From contig JACOZG010000037.1 in assembly GCA_016181465.1 (NCBI GenBank), forward strand, positions 1 through 33,219: DNA of 33,219 bases. Reading direction: 5' to 3'. This DNA comes from Candidatus Vogelbacteria bacterium (GTDB taxonomy: Bacteria; Patescibacteriota; Minisyncoccia; Phycocordibacterales; JACOZG01). Positions 7,055 to 27,111 of the stretch are shown piece after piece; within the stretch, counting starts at the first letter, position 1, and every line of letters begins with the position of its first letter. The notes under the pieces are model-generated. The model did not search any database, was not told where the DNA came from, and saw nothing but the letters and a program-made list of their open reading frames with translations. The translations under genes and the position numbers were made by a program.

Positions 7055-8098
7055 ATGAGAGTTAATTTGACCGAGAAGGCGATTCTGGCCAAGCATCTGG
7101 CGGTGATGCTGAATGCCGGGTTGACGCTCTCCGAAGCGCTCGCCGTGGCGATTGATTCCGCGGCGGCCGGAAACTTAAAAAGGGTGTTAAGGCGCGTGCG
7201 GCAATCGGTCGAGTCCGGCACCGCCTTCTCCCAGGCGCTCGGCGCTTATCCGAAAGTTTTTTCCGGCGTTTTCGTCAGCGCCGTTTACGCCGGCGAGCGT
7301 TCCGGCAACCTTGCCGTCAATCTCACCCAGCTCTCGCGGGCCCTAGAGAAAGAACGTACCCTGTTGGCTAAAGTCAAGGGGGCGATGATTTATCCGGCGA
7401 TCGTGCTTGCCGCCGCCGCGGTTCTAGGTCTCGGTATCGCCTTCTTTATTTTGCCTAAAATTACTCCACTCTTCCGCGGTTTGCGGATTGATTTGCCCTG
7501 GACCACTCGTTTTCTCATCTCGTTTGCCGACTTCATTGACGCTTACGGGGCAGCTTTTTTTCTGGGACTTGTCCTCGCCGCGATTTTTCTCCCCTGGCTT
7601 TTAAGACGGCGCTCGCTCGCGCCCTTGACTCATTGGTGCCTGCTTCATTTTCCGGCCGTCGGGAGAATCTCCGCCAATCTCAATCTGGCGCGTCTCGCCG
7701 GCACCGTCGGCCTCCTCTTAAAAAGCGGCGTCAACATTGACGAGACTCTGACCATCGCCGAAAAGACAACGGGCAATTTTTACTACCGTCGGGCCTTGCG
7801 ACGGGTCAGCGCCGATGTCGGCCGGGGCCTCAAGCTCTCCGAGAGTTTTGAGCAGTTTCCCGGACTTTTCCCGCTTCTCTTTAGCCGGCTGGCGCGGGTC
7901 GGCGAGGTCTCGGGCCGGTTTGAGGAAACCTTTTTTTATCTTGCCGATTTTTACGAAGACGAAGTGGATGCCGCGGCCAAGTCGCTCTCGACAGCGCTCG
8001 AGCCGATCCTGCTTTTGGTCATCGGTCTTGTCGTCGCCGGCTTGGCGCTCTCCATCATCACGCCGATCTATGAGATCACCGGCAACATCAGACGTTAG
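7055..8098 (+). CDS. pilC: Type II secretion F / PilC inner-membrane platform protein
   Basis: LTEKAILAKHLAVMLNAGLTLSEAL, repeated T2SSF domains, hydrophobic segments. Confidence 0.95.
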   Translation: MRVNLTEKAILAKHLAVMLNAGLTLSEALAVAIDSAAAGNLKRVLRRVRQSVESGTAFSQALGAYPKVFSGVFVSAVYAGERSGNLAVNLTQLSRALEKERTLLAKVKGAMIYPAIVLAAAAVLGLGIAFFILPKITPLFRGLRIDLPWTTRFLISFADFIDAYGAAFFLGLVLAAIFLPWLLRRRSLAPLTHWCLLHFPAVGRISANLNLARLAGTVGLLLKSGVNIDETLTIAEKTTGNFYYRRALRRVSADVGRGLKLSESFEQFPGLFPLLFSRLARVGEVSGRFEETFFYLADFYEDEVDAAAKSLSTALEPILLLVIGLVVAGLALSIITPIYEITGNIRR

Positions 8099-8150: not shown

Positions 8151-8363
8151 ATGTTCTTTGGGTGGAGAAAAAAGAAAACCCCGGATGAAGTTTTTGAAGC
8201 ACTTTGTGATTTTTTCGAAGCACATCAGAAGGAGGATGGTCTCGAGTTAGCCCTGAAAGACTTCTTGAACCGCTATCGGGCTAAACCTTATTTTAAGGAT
8301 CTCGTTGATAAGGCAAAGGTTTGGCTCCTACTTCTTCGAGCTAAAGACAAAAGATCAAAATGA
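8151..8363 (+). CDS. Small hypothetical protein (70 aa)
   Basis: MFFGWRKKKTPDEVFEALCDFFEAHQKEDGLELALKDFLNRYR; SD aaaggag upstream of ATG at 8151. Confidence 0.65.
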   Translation: MFFGWRKKKTPDEVFEALCDFFEAHQKEDGLELALKDFLNRYRAKPYFKDLVDKAKVWLLLLRAKDKRSK

Positions 8364-9610: not shown

Positions 9611-11336
9611 AGGGCAAAGTATTTTGGAGGTGATTTTGGCTTTGGCCATTTTCGCGCTCTTTGCCAGCGCGATGGTCTCGTTGATTCTCGGCAGTTTCGA
9701 GGCGCTCGGCCGCGGGAGCGACTACCTCGCCGCCGCGGCGCTCGCGGATGAAGGTCTGGAGGCCGCGCGCTCGATTCGCGACGGCGCCTGGAATGAGCTG
9801 ACCGTTAATCAGAGCGCGGTCACTTTCACTTCGGGCGAATGGCAATTGATCGGCGAGGGCACAGACGAACAGCTTGGCAAATTCCATCGGGTCTTAACTT
9901 TTTCTTCGGTTTGCCGCGACAGCAATTTGAACTTGACAACTTGTCCGTCCGGCACGACCGACCTCCACTCTCGAATCGTCAAAACCGTGGTTGATTGGAT
10001 GACTCCGGTCGGCACCGCGGCGGCGGTGGAACGTCAGACCATGATGACCAATTGGGACTCACGCGATTGGCTACAGACCGATTGGTCCGGCGGTCAGTAT
10101 GCATCGGTTGATCCCACGATAGATGTCAGCGTCGTCGGCCAAATTAGTTTGAAAGCGAAACCATCAGTATGGACCGCTCTTGCCAGCACCGGCACGCAAA
10201 CTTGGAACGATATTTGGATGTTTTCGGCCACCGACGGTTTTGTGGTTGGTTCCGGCGGTCAGATCCGGCGGTGGAATAACCCTGATCCTAATGTTTGGAA
10301 TGTTATCACTCCAGTCAATACCCAAAACTTAAATGCCGTTCATTGTTCCTCGGCGACTAATTGTTTCGCCGTGGGGGCAAGCGGAACGATTCTTAGGTGG
10401 AATGGATCGGTTTGGTCCTTACCATCGGGTTGGGATACTGGTAATCAAACTTGGAACGATGTTTGGGCCTTCGGCCCCACATCCGGTTTTGTGGTGGGCG
10501 CGGCCGGCGAGATCTGGCGACACAATGGTAGCGCCTGGGTTCGATCTCAAGACACCGGTAACCAAACTTGGAATGCTCTCTGGATGTTTTCTGCAACCGA
10601 TGGCGTTGTGGCCGGTTCGGCGGGAGAGATTCGACGCTACAATGGTAGTAGTTGGTCCTTACCATCGGGTTGGGATACTGGTAATCAAACTTGGAACGAT
10701 GTTTGGATGTTTAGCGCGACGGACGGCGTAGTGGTCGGGAGTAGTGGTTTGGCTCGTCGTTTTAACGGAGCAGATTGGAATACACCGGTGTCAACGGGCG
10801 TTACCATCAGCATCAACGCTGTCTATCTTTCTCTAACCAGCGGTTGGGCCGTAGGGAACAATACTCCAGGGGAGTTAATATTGTCTTGGGATGGTGCAAG
10901 TTTTAGTCGTGTCGGACCCTCGTCTTCTCTGCCCAACATAAATTTGTTCGGTTTGCATTGCGCTTCTATTAATGATTGTTTTGCGGTCGGCGCCAGCGGA
11001 AATATTTTCCGTCTCGCCGGCGGCGGGTATGAAATGGCTGGCTCTTTAATTTCTTCGGCGTTTGATCTGACCGATCCCTCGCCGGTGCAGATTATCGAGT
11101 GGGACGAGCAGGTGCCGGTGTGCGCTCCGGCCTGCACGATCCGTTTCCAGATTCGCGCCGCGGCGGACCAACCGGCGCTGGCCGCCGCGCCCTGGTCTTT
11201 GGATTTTACCGTTGCCGCCGGCGCCCTGATCAATCCGAGTTATAATGGTAACCGCTGGCTACAGTACCGCGTGTTACTAGACGGCGACGGTATAAGCACC
11301 CCGGTGCTTAATGAGGTTAGAATAAACTATAAATGA
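9585..11336 (+). CDS. Prepilin-like N-terminus fused to YCF48/beta-propeller-like repeats
   Basis: KGQSILEVILALAIFALFASAMVSLILGSFEALGRGSDYLAAAALADEGLEAARSIRDGAWNEL, then repeated TGNQTWNDVWxFxxTxGxVVGxxGxIxRxNGSxW units. Confidence 0.88.
   Translation: MNLAWLKNKGQSILEVILALAIFALFASAMVSLILGSFEALGRGSDYLAAAALADEGLEAARSIRDGAWNELTVNQSAVTFTSGEWQLIGEGTDEQLGKFHRVLTFSSVCRDSNLNLTTCPSGTTDLHSRIVKTVVDWMTPVGTAAAVERQTMMTNWDSRDWLQTDWSGGQYASVDPTIDVSVVGQISLKAKPSVWTALASTGTQTWNDIWMFSATDGFVVGSGGQIRRWNNPDPNVWNVITPVNTQNLNAVHCSSATNCFAVGASGTILRWNGSVWSLPSGWDTGNQTWNDVWAFGPTSGFVVGAAGEIWRHNGSAWVRSQDTGNQTWNALWMFSATDGVVAGSAGEIRRYNGSSWSLPSGWDTGNQTWNDVWMFSATDGVVVGSSGLARRFNGADWNTPVSTGVTISINAVYLSLTSGWAVGNNTPGELILSWDGASFSRVGPSSSLPNINLFGLHCASINDCFAVGASGNIFRLAGGGYEMAGSLISSAFDLTDPSPVQIIEWDEQVPVCAPACTIRFQIRAAADQPALAAAPWSLDFTVAAGALINPSYNGNRWLQYRVLLDGDGISTPVLNEVRINYK
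10412..10706 (+). repeat. 55-bp exact direct repeat in the propeller-coding region
   Basis: ttggtccttaccatcgggttgggatactggtaatcaaacttggaacgatgtttgg at 10412-10466 and 10652-10706. Confidence 0.9.
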
Positions 11337-13723: not shown

Positions 13724-14257
13724 ATGAAGCTACGAGGTTTTACATTGATTGAGTTGTTAATCGTCATTGCCATCATCGCGATCTTAGCCGGGGTCGTGTT
13801 CGTCTCCCTTAATCCGTTGCAACGGTTCCAGGACGCGCGCAATGCCGCTCGCTGGACCGATGTCACGGCCGTGCTTTCGGCGATCAAAGTTGATCAGGTG
13901 GATAACGGCGGGCAGTATCTGGACGGTTCGGCGGGGTTTAGTATCGCTGATTTAACAGCCAATGAGTATTATATGATTAGTAACGATCCCACTACCGTGC
14001 CGAGTTCTGGTTGCAATACCTCTTGCTCGATTGTTAATGACGGTAATAATTGTGTGAGTCTGGATAATGGAACGGCTGGTTTGGTTAGCGAAGGTTATCT
14101 AGCCCGCATTCCAGTTAGTCCAGCCGGCGCCGCCACTTGGGATACAGGCAGTTTGAGTGATATGACCGGTTATTACATATCTCTAAGTAACCGTAAGTCT
14201 ATCACTATCGGTGCCTGCGATGCTGAAGGCGGGGAGACCATCACGGTTAACCGGTAA
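13724..14257 (+). CDS. Type IV major pilin-like protein
   Basis: MKLRGFTLIELLIVIAIIAILAGVVFVSLNPLQRFQDARNAARWTDV. Confidence 0.93.
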   Translation: MKLRGFTLIELLIVIAIIAILAGVVFVSLNPLQRFQDARNAARWTDVTAVLSAIKVDQVDNGGQYLDGSAGFSIADLTANEYYMISNDPTTVPSSGCNTSCSIVNDGNNCVSLDNGTAGLVSEGYLARIPVSPAGAATWDTGSLSDMTGYYISLSNRKSITIGACDAEGGETITVNR

Positions 14258-14865
14258 TGCTCTATACTCGCAAGGGTGATGGCGGCACGACTAAATTTTT
14301 CGGTTGCGATCAGCGATTCTCCAAAAGCTCGGCCGTGGCCGAGGCGCTCGGCGCGGTGGATGAACTGAACTCTTTGCTCGGTTTCGTTAAGGCCCAGTTT
14401 AACGTAACTGGTGGAAATCAGATATCCACGAGCCGTGGATATCTGATTTCCACCACTAGCGAAATCATTGATAAAATCCAGCATAATCTATTTATCGTTC
14501 AAGCCGAGCTTGCTGGCGCTAAGCCCCGCACCCAACGTGGTGCGGGGCGCGGCAAGGCCTTAACCATTTCTTCAACAAAAGTCACGGCTTTGGAAAAAAT
14601 TATTGACGGGATTGAAAAAGAATTGCCGCCGATCAAAACCTTTTTTGTCCCGGGCGGCGCGGCGCCGGCGGCCTTGCTGGATTACGCGCGAACAGTTTGT
14701 CGCCGGGCGGAAAGGCGAGTGATTGCCGCCCGTGAGAAAAATGAGGTTAAATTAAGTGATTCAACCGCCGCCTATCTTAATCGTCTCTCCTCGCTCCTTT
14801 ACGCGCTGGCTAGACTCGTTAATCATCTGTCTGGTATAAAAGAAGAGCCGCCGCATTATCAGTAG
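14257..14865 (+). CDS. PduO-type cob(I)alamin adenosyltransferase
   Basis: MLYTRKGDGGTTKFFG...GAVDELNSLLGFVKAQF...IQHNLFIVQAELA...FFVPGGAAPAALLDYARTVCRRAERRVIA...YLNRLSSLLYALARLVNH. Confidence 0.92.
   Translation: MLYTRKGDGGTTKFFGCDQRFSKSSAVAEALGAVDELNSLLGFVKAQFNVTGGNQISTSRGYLISTTSEIIDKIQHNLFIVQAELAGAKPRTQRGAGRGKALTISSTKVTALEKIIDGIEKELPPIKTFFVPGGAAPAALLDYARTVCRRAERRVIAAREKNEVKLSDSTAAYLNRLSSLLYALARLVNHLSGIKEEPPHYQ
14410..14454. repeat. Perfect in-frame hairpin element, 21-bp arms with AGC loop
   Basis: ggtggaaatcagatatccacg-agc-cgtggatatctgatttccacc inside the adenosyltransferase CDS; 45 bp = 15 codons. Confidence 0.95.
14523..14548. repeat. Second in-frame hairpin, 10-bp arms
   Basis: gccccgcacc-caacgt-ggtgcggggc inside the same CDS. 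Confidence 0.9.
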
Positions 14866-18278: not shown

Positions 18279-19568
18279 ATGAGGAAGATATTTTTGGGCT
18301 TGCTGTTGTTAGTTGGGGCACTGGCGATTCTTCCGCTTTTTGCCGCCTTCGAAGTCCATGTCGTCAATGTCACGGCCAAGATTGAGAACGCTCTTTCGTT
18401 AACAGCTGAAGCGCTCGACTTCGGCACGGTGTTTCCGCAAGAACACCTGGCTCAACAACTCGACATCGCCCTGTCGAGTTCTTTTTTAGCCGAGCCGCGG
18501 GTGGATGATGTGAACTACTTCATCCGTCAGAAGCCCAAGTGCGCGATTACCAGTAACGATGGTACCAGTTTTGATCCGGAAAACACTGTTACCGGTCAGG
18601 TAATCGTCAATCGAGAAAATAACACCAGCAACAGTGTTACCCGTATTGATTGCGGCCCGCCGCCGCGCGACTTGCGAGAAGGTGAATCGTGGGGCGTTCT
18701 GCCATCACTCTGCGAATACTTGTCCAAGACCGGCGAAGAAAATGAACTGCTGTCATTTCATAAACCGTGGCAGGTAGAAAACAGTCAAGTAGTTTGGAAT
18801 GATACCAGAGGTTATCTGGCAAAATCAACGAATGACATTTCTGACACCTGGACGATTGACCTGGCCGTGCCGTGCTTTGGTGGTTATTGCGCTCAAGATT
18901 GGGAAGATTTTGTCAGACGAATCAATGCTGGTGCTCTACCAGCCGAGCAATGGGTTCAACCAGCCGAAAACGAGCATAAAATTTTCGGCTGCGACCTCTG
19001 GGTGGAGGTGACTGGCGTGAGCCAAGCCGGATGGGTTACCCCGCCACCCGCCGAGCCGGTGACTATTTTTTCTGATGACTTCGGAACGGGGGACACCGCC
19101 AATGACATTCCGGATTGGGATGAAGAAGGGGATGACAATGCTTCCTCCACGTTGGCCAGGGCCCCGACAGCAACCGGTAATAACACCGCGAGTCCGGACG
19201 GCGGCCGCTTTGCCAGAATTGGCTCCGGCGAGTGGATTTGCCGGCCAGTGAATGCTACGGGCTTTAACGTGTTGATGTTGCAGTATTATTGGAGGGGCGA
19301 TAATGATGCCGAAAATGACAGTGACCTCGGCCTCGTTGAATACGCGACTGGCGGTACCTGTGATAGTCCAACCGGATTGACCGCGCTGGTAGCCCATGAG
19401 TTGGATGATGACCCCGCCGCCGGCGAGGAGTGGAGTTCATGGCAATCCATTAACTTGCCGGACGCCATTGATGGAACGGCCTTCTTACTCCGATTCCGTA
19501 ATGCCGCCACTGCCAATGAAGAGGATTTCCGCGTGGATGATGTCGTGTTGATCGGTCTGGCGCCATGA
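18279..19568 (+). CDS. TasA/camelysin-like secreted protein with extra C-terminal beta-sandwich-like domain
   Basis: LPLFAAFEVHVVNVTAKIENALSLTAEALDFGTVFPQEHL shared with the next two genes; C-terminal IFSDDFGTGDTANDIPDWDEEGDD...FRVDDVVLIGLAP. Confidence 0.75.
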   Translation: MRKIFLGLLLLVGALAILPLFAAFEVHVVNVTAKIENALSLTAEALDFGTVFPQEHLAQQLDIALSSSFLAEPRVDDVNYFIRQKPKCAITSNDGTSFDPENTVTGQVIVNRENNTSNSVTRIDCGPPPRDLREGESWGVLPSLCEYLSKTGEENELLSFHKPWQVENSQVVWNDTRGYLAKSTNDISDTWTIDLAVPCFGGYCAQDWEDFVRRINAGALPAEQWVQPAENEHKIFGCDLWVEVTGVSQAGWVTPPPAEPVTIFSDDFGTGDTANDIPDWDEEGDDNASSTLARAPTATGNNTASPDGGRFARIGSGEWICRPVNATGFNVLMLQYYWRGDNDAENDSDLGLVEYATGGTCDSPTGLTALVAHELDDDPAAGEEWSSWQSINLPDAIDGTAFLLRFRNAATANEEDFRVDDVVLIGLAP

Positions 19569-19662
19569 TTTAAGTTTGACATCGAGCCTCCCGTCACCAC
19601 CTCGACGATGTTGGCGGGAGATGTAAAAATAAATTATCAGTTTATTAACCTAAGAAAAAGAT

Positions 19663-20412
19663 ATGAAGAAAATTTTTGTCGGACTGTTGACGCTCGGCGC
19701 GGCGCTCGTGGTCATCCCGATGTTCGCCGCCTTCGAAGCGCATGTGATTAACGTAACGGCCCAGATTGAGAATGCTTTGTCGGTAACGACCAATGCTTTG
19801 GACTTCGGCACCGTCTTCCCGCAAGAGCACTTGGATAAGACCGTTGATGTGGCTTTGTCGCAATCGTTTATTGATGAACCGCGAGTGGACGACGTATCCT
19901 ACTTTATCCGTCAAAAGCCCAAGTGCGCGATTACGAGCAATAACGGCGAATCGTTTGATTCGGAAAATACGGCCACTGGTCATGTAATCGTGGACGAGCA
20001 GGGTAATATTAGTATTGGTTGTGGTGAGCCACCGCGCACTCTCGTAACCGGTGAGTCTTGGGGTTCCCTACCGTCACTCTGCGAATATATCTCCAAAGAA
20101 GGCGATGATGAAAACGACGATACTACTCCTTCTTTCCACCAGCCGTGGACCATTGATGACGGTGAGATTGATTGGCTGGACACCTTTGGTTATCTAACTA
20201 AGGACGGTAATGATATTTCTGATACCTGGACCATTGATCTGGCGGTGCCTTGCTTCGGCGGTTACTGCGCCCAGGACTGGGCTGATTTCGTTAACGACAT
20301 CAACCCTGACGCCGGCGATCCGAATCAGTACACTCAACCGATTGAGAACGAACACAAGATTTTCGGCTGTGACTTGTGGGTGGAGGTGGATGGTGTTAGT
20401 GAGTCAGACTAG
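19663..20412 (+). CDS. TasA/camelysin-like secreted protein, paralogue 2
   Basis: IPMFAAFEAHVINVTAQIENALSVTTNALDFGTVFPQEHLDKTVDVALSQSF; conserved Cys pattern with 18279 CDS. Confidence 0.75.
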   Translation: MKKIFVGLLTLGAALVVIPMFAAFEAHVINVTAQIENALSVTTNALDFGTVFPQEHLDKTVDVALSQSFIDEPRVDDVSYFIRQKPKCAITSNNGESFDSENTATGHVIVDEQGNISIGCGEPPRTLVTGESWGSLPSLCEYISKEGDDENDDTTPSFHQPWTIDDGEIDWLDTFGYLTKDGNDISDTWTIDLAVPCFGGYCAQDWADFVNDINPDAGDPNQYTQPIENEHKIFGCDLWVEVDGVSESD

Positions 20413-20423
20413 GACACTAATAG

Positions 20424-21143
20424 ATGAAAAAATTATTAGTCGGTTTAGGTAGCGTCTTGTTAGTGCTGGTGGCGATGCCGCTCTTCGCCGCTTTTGAGGC
20501 CCATGTGGTGAATGTCTCGGCGACGATTGAGAACGCGCTGTATGTGCATCCGCAATCGCGAGAGTTTGGGACGGTGTTTCCGCAGGAATATCTTGAACAG
20601 GCGATATTCGTAACCTTCAGTGAATCGTTTTCCGCTACAGATCAGAGGCGTGTCGGCACGGTTGAGTATGCGATTAAGCAAAAACCAAAACCGCTTGCCG
20701 CCTACGAAGCCCAAGTGGGGATTGAACCAGCGAGAGCCTGGTGCCACGACAATTATCCGATCACGCCTTATAGTTCTACGGACTCAAGCTGGCAGAGTTA
20801 TCTGACTAACTGCATGCCGTCCTTGTGCCCCTATCTCTCCAAGACGCCGGACGGGTTTCCCTCACCGAGCAATGACACCGGGGTCTTGCCCTTCCACGAT
20901 CCGTTTGCCACTTCTTCGTTCGCGACTGGGAAAATCAACAAGTTCGGCACGGATGTGGGCGATAACTGGATCATTGATTTAGCCGTGCCTTGCTTCCGGG
21001 GTCAATGCGCTCAAGATTGGTCGGCTTTTGTCACGGGTAAAAATCCTTCGGTTACCGACCCGTCAATCTACGAGCTGTCGTCAGAATTGGAGCACGAAGT
21101 TTTCGGTTGCAATCTCTGGGTCGAAGTTACCGATATCTACTAA
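20424..21143 (+). CDS. TasA/camelysin-like secreted protein, paralogue 3 (divergent)
   Basis: MPLFAAFEAHVVNVSATIENALYVHPQSREFGTVFPQEYLEQAIFVTFSESF. Confidence 0.75.
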   Translation: MKKLLVGLGSVLLVLVAMPLFAAFEAHVVNVSATIENALYVHPQSREFGTVFPQEYLEQAIFVTFSESFSATDQRRVGTVEYAIKQKPKPLAAYEAQVGIEPARAWCHDNYPITPYSSTDSSWQSYLTNCMPSLCPYLSKTPDGFPSPSNDTGVLPFHDPFATSSFATGKINKFGTDVGDNWIIDLAVPCFRGQCAQDWSAFVTGKNPSVTDPSIYELSSELEHEVFGCNLWVEVTDIY

Positions 21144-25708: not shown

Positions 25709-27001
25709 ATGAAAATCTTCATCTACGACGAGTTTAATCCCGAGGATACGGCGATGTTGCAGGCCCTATATTCCCGTTCAGCGGCCTCGGTCACCGAGCA
25801 TGTGGCGAAAGTGCGTCAGTCCGGCTCCGGCAAGTTTATGGAGAAATATTATGTCGGCTACGGCCACGCCTCGATCGCCGATTGCGGCTCGGCCACCATT
25901 TTTCTTGAAGGTGTGTCCATGCTCGTGGCCAAGGCGGTCCAAGATTGGCCGCTTTACTCCGGTCAGGAGACGAGCTCCCGCTACATGGATCTGTCGCGCC
26001 AGCCGATTATCGACCCGGTCGGTACGCCAGCATCAAGGACTATCCTTGATGGTTGGATGGAATTTTATACGAATAATCAAACGACAGTGGCGGAACATTT
26101 GAAAATTAAATATTCAAAACGCGCCGACGAAGATGAAGCGGTTTATGAACGGGCGATCAAGGCGCGCACCTTTGACATTCTTCGCGGTTTCCTGCCGGCC
26201 GGTGTGACAACCCAACTCTCTTGGCACACCAACTTGCGTCAAGCCTGGGACAAATTGGCTCTGCTCCGTTATTGGCCCTTGCCCGAGGTGCAGGCGGTGG
26301 CTCGGGAAGTTCACCAAAAATTGCGGGGAAAATATCAATCCAGTTTCAGCCACCAGTTATCGGCGGAGCAAGAAAGGTACTGGAAATTTTTAGGCGCCAA
26401 ACACACTTTTTATCTGGAGAAAAAATACCGTGGCAATTTTACCGCCAAGACAAATATCAAACCAGCTGAACTTAATCGTTACCGCGGCATTTTGCGCCGC
26501 CGGCCGCCGAAAACCAATTTGCCTCACTTTCTTTCTCGCCTCGGTCATTGCACTTTTGATTTTCTTTTGGATTTTGGTTCTTTCCGCGACATTCACCGGC
26601 ATCGGAACGGCGTTTGCCGGATGCCGTTTCTCACCACGCGCTTTGGTTTTAATCAGTGGTATCTGGAGCAACTGCCGGAGGCATTGCGACTGAAGGCTAA
26701 GAAATTAATTGCTGAACAAAAAATCGCCATCGCCAAACTAAAAGTGCCGCACGAACTAACGCAGTATTATATCGCGATGGGCTTTAATGTTACCTGCCAA
26801 GTCAGTTACGGTCTGCCAGCGACGGTTTATGTGGTTGAGCTTCGGTCTGGAAAAATGGTCCACCCGACGCTCCGGCGGGTGGCGCATAAAATGGACGCGT
26901 TTTTGCGCCGCAAATTTCCGGCGCTCAAACTTTACTCTGATCTTGATCCGGATGATTGGGACATCCGCCGCGGTCGGCAGGATATTAAGGAGAAACCCTA
27001 A
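25709..27001 (+). CDS. ThyX-like (FAD-dependent thymidylate synthase family) protein
   Basis: YVGYGHASIADCG, SGQETSSRYMDLSRQPIIDPVG, FRDIHRHRNGVCRMPFLTTRFGF. Confidence 0.8.
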   Translation: MKIFIYDEFNPEDTAMLQALYSRSAASVTEHVAKVRQSGSGKFMEKYYVGYGHASIADCGSATIFLEGVSMLVAKAVQDWPLYSGQETSSRYMDLSRQPIIDPVGTPASRTILDGWMEFYTNNQTTVAEHLKIKYSKRADEDEAVYERAIKARTFDILRGFLPAGVTTQLSWHTNLRQAWDKLALLRYWPLPEVQAVAREVHQKLRGKYQSSFSHQLSAEQERYWKFLGAKHTFYLEKKYRGNFTAKTNIKPAELNRYRGILRRRPPKTNLPHFLSRLGHCTFDFLLDFGSFRDIHRHRNGVCRMPFLTTRFGFNQWYLEQLPEALRLKAKKLIAEQKIAIAKLKVPHELTQYYIAMGFNVTCQVSYGLPATVYVVELRSGKMVHPTLRRVAHKMDAFLRRKFPALKLYSDLDPDDWDIRRGRQDIKEKP

Positions 27002-27111
27002 ATGTGCGACATCTGATGTCTAACATTTGCTGCTTGACTCTTTGTTTATGTTTAGGTTAGTTTAATGATTGGACGACCGATCTTGAATGTTAAACCGAAA
27101 GGGGTGATCGA

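Follow-up and report, generated by a model that had tools for sequence, protein, structure and literature searches.

Since the work on Rickettsia, palindromes located in frame within essential genes have been regarded as a curiosity. To our knowledge, no mover of palindromes of this (CGTC) type is known. Classical Rickettsia palindromic elements (RPEs) have a length of about 150 bp (PMC10969869). According to PMC3733652, CGTC stands at one of their ends, and CGTC repeats apparently have no dedicated transposase. REPs are short palindromes with a GT[AG]G foot which flank their own Y1 transposase, the RAYT; TnpAY1 subclass 2.4 features 'double foot' REPs and insertions which lie in frame within the transposase gene (PMC6006769). 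In vitro cleavage of single-stranded REPs is published for RAYTs, with work on proteins from E. coli, Stenotrophomonas and Marinomonas (PMC8266576). Di Nocera et al. (2013) gave a list of REPs which are in frame within genes for repair proteins and tRNA synthetases; in recB of two Xanthomonas species different REPs occupy about the same site (PMC3733652). A literature search in open-licence papers yielded nothing relevant on RAYTs or palindromic inserts in CPR/Patescibacteria.

The DNA analysed here, a stretch of 33,219 nucleotides (the window), is contig C17 of the 644-kb draft genome of an ultra-small bacterium (91% complete, 48 contigs). A preliminary description had pointed to a perfect hairpin with 21-bp arms at 14410-14454, 45 bp or 15 codons long and beginning on a codon boundary. 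Sequence, repeat search and folding against shuffles bear this out, as does the reading frame of the 202-aa ORF at 14257-14865. The features are:

14257..14865, + strand: gene for a PduO-type cob(I)yrinic acid a,c-diamide adenosyltransferase, 202 aa (Pfam PF01923, TIGR00636, homologue alignment)
14409..14455, no strand: whole palindromic element, a perfect inverted dimer with 22-nt arms and a 3-nt spacer; core 45-mer at 14410-14454; identical 47-mer in recJ
14411..14429, + strand: left REP-like unit GTGGAAATCAGATATCCAC, double foot GTGG...CCAC, core ATCAGAT; the unit also flanks the transposase gene on contig C36
14435..14453, - strand: right REP-like unit, inverted copy (pattern search)
14524..14547, no strand: second in-frame palindrome in pduO, CCCCGCACC-CAACGT-GGTGCGGGG, perfect, unrelated to the 45-mer (homologue alignment)

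The sequence of the core is as first described. The arms (14409-14430 and 14434-14455) are 100% complementary over 22 nt, a count which includes a flanking T/A; without it they measure 21 bp. No perfect inverted repeat in the repeat list of the window is longer; the entries which exceed it in length are only 72-82% complementary. Folded as DNA the hairpin reached -23.3 kcal/mol (z = -11; 0 of 200 shuffles were as good) and as RNA -35.7 kcal/mol (z = -11). Base counting gives a chance expectation of about 1e-7 for a perfect 21-bp arm at 3-nt spacing in 0.64 Mb. The 21-bp arms are near-palindromes in their own right (GTGGAAATC-A-GATATCCAC). Thus, the unit has about 19 bp and the whole element is an inverted dimer. 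The consensus of the double-foot unit is GTGGAWATC-W-GATWTCCAC (19 bp).

A pattern search for the 19-bp unit yielded nine matches in the own genome, located at six loci, and none in the reversed control. The copies away from the transposase are all in frame within genes (4 of 4: pduO, recJ, uvrB and a membrane protein). In recJ on contig C11 the 47-mer is identical to that in pduO, the asymmetric spacer included, and has the same orientation to the gene. It is read in another frame, giving WWKSDIHEPWISDFH in recJ vs GGNQISTSRGYLIST in pduO, and the outer flanks of both 47-mers are unrelated. Identical DNA in two unrelated genes, frames and surroundings indicates that DNA was moved, not a peptide; it is the clearest sign of DNA movement in these sequences, which would have been recent. 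Diverged in-frame copies are present in uvrB (contig C7, peptide SGNQISTEKS) and on contig C43 in the gene of a 234-aa membrane-type protein without a Pfam family (peptide GNLISGGNQISS). Every host gene with a named family keeps its reading frame. The open reading frames and the recognisable families of PduO, UvrB and RecJ suggest that the inserts leave the proteins active.

With at most one mismatch the unit was found in 9 of 397 genomes of the order, i.e. the own genome and eight others; among them are named Paceibacteria/Parcubacteria records. Relatives have in-frame copies in cysS (LWKSDIH), pheT (LWISDFHKMWKSDIH) and in tsaD and a glycosyltransferase gene (VDIRYPQ). All three reading frames of the unit are in use, which argues against selection for one peptide; the peptide as the selected unit was rejected because several frames are used. 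In Taylorbacteria and relatives the unit occurs both between and within genes, and the dimer arrangement was also found in independently assembled genomes. Single, unpaired 19-mer matches in Citrobacter, Pectobacterium, Phycicoccus and others are probably due to chance. Copies in frame are thus present in the own genome and in relatives, and no homologues were encountered which carry the same residues on DNA devoid of the palindrome. To judge from its distribution, the 45-bp hairpin is a dispersed repeat, very probably a tiny mobile element which in this genome resides within proteins, not between genes.

Contig C36 carries a gene for a 233-aa Y1/IS200-like transposase between copies of the unit (PF01797, 34.4 bits, cut-off 23). 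GTGGAWATCWGATWTCCAC is located on both sides, as a dimer upstream (8256-8304) and as a single unit downstream (7490-7508). There are four Y1 (RAYT-like) transposase genes in the genome; every one has flanking palindromes, and the palindrome family differs from gene to gene (GTGGAWATC..., TGTTAGACATC..., TGTTAGACACTCGG... and TCAAGGTTTAACCTTGC...). The closest relative of the C36 transposase, 61% identical, is from Taylorbacteria (MHSF01000012) and has GTGGATATCAGATATCCAC on both sides, the downstream copy with one change. In that organism a 43%-identical transposase is bordered upstream and downstream by GTTGAAATCAGATATCAAC dimers. As a test, 30 homologous loci, from as many genomes of the order (Paceibacteria), were searched for an exact palindrome of at least 13 nt common to both 260-bp flanks. 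It was present in 20 of 30 loci, whereas none of 26 far flanks and none of 600 shuffles had one; by eye, most of the remaining loci have imperfect palindrome pairs. The centre [AG]TC[AT]GA[CT] was found at 21 of 30 loci vs 1 of 26 controls, and the foot GT[AG]G...C[CT]AC at 10 of 30, mostly the closest ones, vs none of 26. The outer stems differ among the loci. Thus, the stem sequence varies with the transposase, as expected if the palindromes are its substrates. What can be read directly from the genomes comprises the repeats with their in-frame positions, the uvrB and recJ empty sites detailed below and the pairing of transposases with their own palindromes.

As sequence motifs, NHxH (HUH) and the Y motif with the catalytic Tyr are conserved in all 30 homologues. 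The Y motif of this clade is Y[IV]x[VILMC]KN throughout (30 of 30), and LFQG/IFQG is present. The C36 transposase scored 19.3 bits against the NCBI RAYT equivalog model NF047646, below the cut-off of 80; therefore we call the group a divergent RAYT-like clade, not canonical RAYT. A PDB search with this transposase yielded no relative. A palindrome of the family which belongs to the C45 transposase, TGTGCGACATCTGATGTCTAACA, is located in the window at 27003-27025, right after the stop of the ORF 25709-27001. Copies of the CAAGGTTTAACCTTG family are in frame in genes which, by sequence inspection, code for EF-G (L147, C25:34101), MurB (L155, C45:2446), NusA (L144, C11:21487) and a glycosyltransferase (L168, C30:4648) of the own genome; the one in EF-G directly precedes the NIIDTPGHIDF motif.

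How does this locus compare with the described systems? It shares with the REP/RAYT system (REPtron) a short dispersed palindrome with a GT[AG]G/C[CT]AC foot on both sides of a Y1 HUH transposase, transposase-specific families, several per genome, and in-frame copies within genes. Like subclass 2.4 TnpAREP (PMC6006769), the transposases on contigs C11 (L029) and C45 (L027) carry their own flanking palindrome inside the ORF, read as FVKHRVFNI and FVKHQMFNI. However, the Y motif Y[IV]x[VILMC]KN differs from the YIxNNP of this subclass, LFQG/IFQG does not conform to its W-Q motif, and none of the Y motifs given in the accessible part of PMC6006769 matches that of the C36 clade. The conserved [AG]TC[AT]GA[CT] centre and the CPR (Paceibacteria) host also set the palindromes apart from the double-foot REPs of subclass 2.4. 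Classical REPs are mostly extragenic, whereas here the copy number is low (six loci) and the four dispersed copies are all intragenic. In-frame insertion in repair and tRNA-synthetase genes, often as dimers, is shared with the intragenic GTAG and CGTC REPs of Di Nocera et al.; in the accessible part of PMC3733652 we found no CPR genome, nor did it contain the present sequence family with its transposase. Two inverted REP units also form one large hairpin in REPINs (Bertels and Rainey, 2011; PMC3116915), yet those have spacers of tens of nucleotides instead of a few, are not limited to few copies and are extragenic rather than in genes.

We consider it very probable that the hairpin, built as an inverted dimer of the double-foot unit, represents a mobile element of REP type and belongs to the RAYT-like Y1 transposase on contig C36. 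Against this count the low copy number in the own genome, the position of all four dispersed copies within genes (unlike classical REPs), the low score of the transposase with the NCBI RAYT model, its unusual Y motif and the palindromes adjoining the C36 gene, which differ from the pduO copy (another spacer). By extrapolation from the E. coli, Stenotrophomonas and Marinomonas proteins (PMC8266576), the C36 transposase most likely recognises the single-stranded hairpin form of the unit, with the GTGG foot and the ATCWGAT centre probably serving in recognition. Most likely it then cuts the unit and helps a copy to join a new site; mobilisation of the element by this transposase is what we infer. 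One copy would have landed in the PduO loop between helices 1 and 2. The insertion would have been tolerated with PduO at full length because it consists of 45 bp (15 codons) and is stop-free in two of the three frames on either strand; accordingly PduO presumably continues to function with the insert.

The preliminary description had likened the hairpin in concept to Rickettsia palindromic elements. If it were such an intragenic palindrome with another mobiliser, the transposase flanks would be coincidental or just landing sites. The palindromes are indeed in frame within conserved protein-coding genes, as are RPEs (PMC10969869), and like these presumably tolerated in surface loops. This reading is improbable because the relatives of the transposase have two-sided palindromes of their own (the 20 of 30 loci vs 0 of 26 and 0 of 600), and in another genome the 61%-identical transposase is flanked by the palindrome of the C36 gene. 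The CGTC tag is absent; the ends are GTGG/CCAC, the element is shorter than classical RPE-1 and a transposase is linked. Accordingly, by sequence criteria the 45-bp hairpin is not an RPE but a REP-like element which goes with a divergent RAYT clade. What stands of the original comparison is a mobile in-frame palindrome in a CPR gene, supported by the other copies and the empty sites in recJ and uvrB. It had also been called unexpected in a CPR-like genome. This is less unprecedented than it seemed since in-frame REPs are known in other bacteria (PMC6006769, PMC3733652). Publications on other phyla already describe in-frame intragenic REPs; the novelty lies in the host group, in the RAYT clade with the Y motif Y[IV]xxKN and in the gene bias of this genome.

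The product of 14257-14865 is, by its profile scores, a genuine PduO-type adenosyltransferase, a vitamin B12 enzyme (PF01923, 160.7 bits; TIGR00636, 148.4 bits, cut-off 108.45), as had been assigned beforehand. The insert is located between helix 1 (DELNSLLGFV) and helix 2 (EIIDKIQHNLF). Most PduO homologues of the order have a loop of 10-15 residues at this position; consequently, the net excess against most of them is less than 15 residues. Stripped of the 15 insert codons, PduO matches the short-loop homologues alone (L109, L106 and PDB 1wvt). The earlier statement that PduO proteins normally have a short loop here does not fit most homologues of the order, and the notion that all are shorter in the loop was rejected. 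The case for an empty site in pduO is softer than in uvrB and recJ, because most relatives have 10-15 other residues there. An AlphaFold prediction without alignment gave a weak model (mean pLDDT 55.6) with the insert between two helices and residues 55-64 below 50, from which we draw no conclusion on fold or trimer.

Could the 15 residues be a selected functional loop of PduO, with the DNA palindrome as a by-product? The loop is variable in the family and most relatives of the order have 10-15 residues there, but identical DNA is read in another frame in recJ and a third frame is used elsewhere (VDIRYPQ in TsaD and the glycosyltransferase), in host proteins which are unrelated. This makes a selected loop very unlikely. 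Equally unlikely is an RNA or DNA structural element, such as an attenuator, a translational pause or a supercoiling site, retained in the coding region for regulation. The RNA hairpin is very stable at -35.7 kcal/mol, and REPs elsewhere influence transcript stability and termination (PMC6006769). However, the hairpin was absent from all 29 aligned pduO homologues, no T run follows it on its 3' side, and copies are in unrelated genes at different positions. An assembly or library artefact (fold-back), or a quasi-palindrome from template switching, is the least credible explanation: the draft has 48 contigs and fold-back synthesis can yield perfect inverted repeats, yet the same 47-mer is present in another contig and gene, independently assembled genomes have the same dimer arrangement and the frame is kept in every host of a named family.

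The REP-type reading is assisted by the empty sites. UvrB of the sister genome G001 reads YFPE directly followed by DFLTII, vs YFAAASGNQISTEKSDFLTII in the present gene, and the solved UvrB structure 2fdc has an 11-residue gap at the place of the insert. Similarly, the recJ insert is absent in G001. In the second sister genome, G002, the other member of the family, the uvrB loop contains a different hairpin with 13-bp arms, GACACCGAGTGTT...AACACTCGGTGTC, the core of which is that of another palindrome family of the present genome. The recJ loop of G002 has CAACTGAAGAATTTTCG...CGAAAATTTTTCAGTTG. Each of these two hairpins surpassed all 100 shuffles. None of the other uvrB (28) and recJ (11) loops had a significant stem. 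TCAAGGCGTTGCCTTGCC is part of the pduO loop of G002; this unit has about 20 matches in G002 vs 1 in the control, but the loop does not form a significant long hairpin (p 0.16). Two other pduO loops (L104, L125) have a nominally significant short stem. The corresponding loop of L107, the pduO homologue from G072, is CPEPVEGGG, encoded by TGTCCTGAGCCTGTCGAAGG, which is probably a repeat widespread among unrelated genomes.

Different palindromes in the same uvrB, recJ and pduO loops could reflect simple tolerance or a targeting preference. Different palindromes in the same uvrB and recJ loops in two genera of one family, and another unit in pduO, fit sites which attract a single-stranded transposition complex. 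They fit as well with new palindromes landing in, or replacing, older ones. A comparable case is recB of two Xanthomonas, with different palindromes at about the same site (PMC3733652); here it is the uvrB and recJ loops of sister genomes which have different palindromes, with another unit in pduO. That Paceibacteria have a RAYT clade of their own, the palindromes of which enter genes at preferred sites, is a speculative proposition which we regard as rather doubtful. If true, recurrent REP insertion in such compact genomes would be a steady supply of new protein loops.

The second palindrome in pduO (14524-14547) is part of an insertion of about 12 residues which is absent from all 29 aligned PduO homologues. 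That it belongs to one of the four transposases was rejected, because a pairing was not seen. Palindromes similar to it are located at C6:22404 and C37:7798; these look non-coding or like terminators.

Here an intragenic palindrome built as an inverted dimer comes together with a transposase linked to it, with a second gene which has an identical copy and with a sister genome in which sites are empty. With palindrome, transposase and empty sites available, the mover and the choice of sites within genes become directly testable, and about 30 transposase/palindrome pairs are usable for work on specificity. Odd loops in CPR proteins such as GNQIST, WKSDIH, VDIRYPQ or QGLTL can be mobile DNA, not adaptations. 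Elsewhere in the window, the gene of a 583-aa pilin-type protein has four copies of a coding repeat of about 91 bp (TGNQTWNDVWMFSATDG...) at 10187-10766. At 18279-21143, three related genes in a row (FAAFEAHVINVTAKIENAL...) precede a signal-peptidase-like gene and a fourth related protein; this looks like a cell-surface protein cluster.
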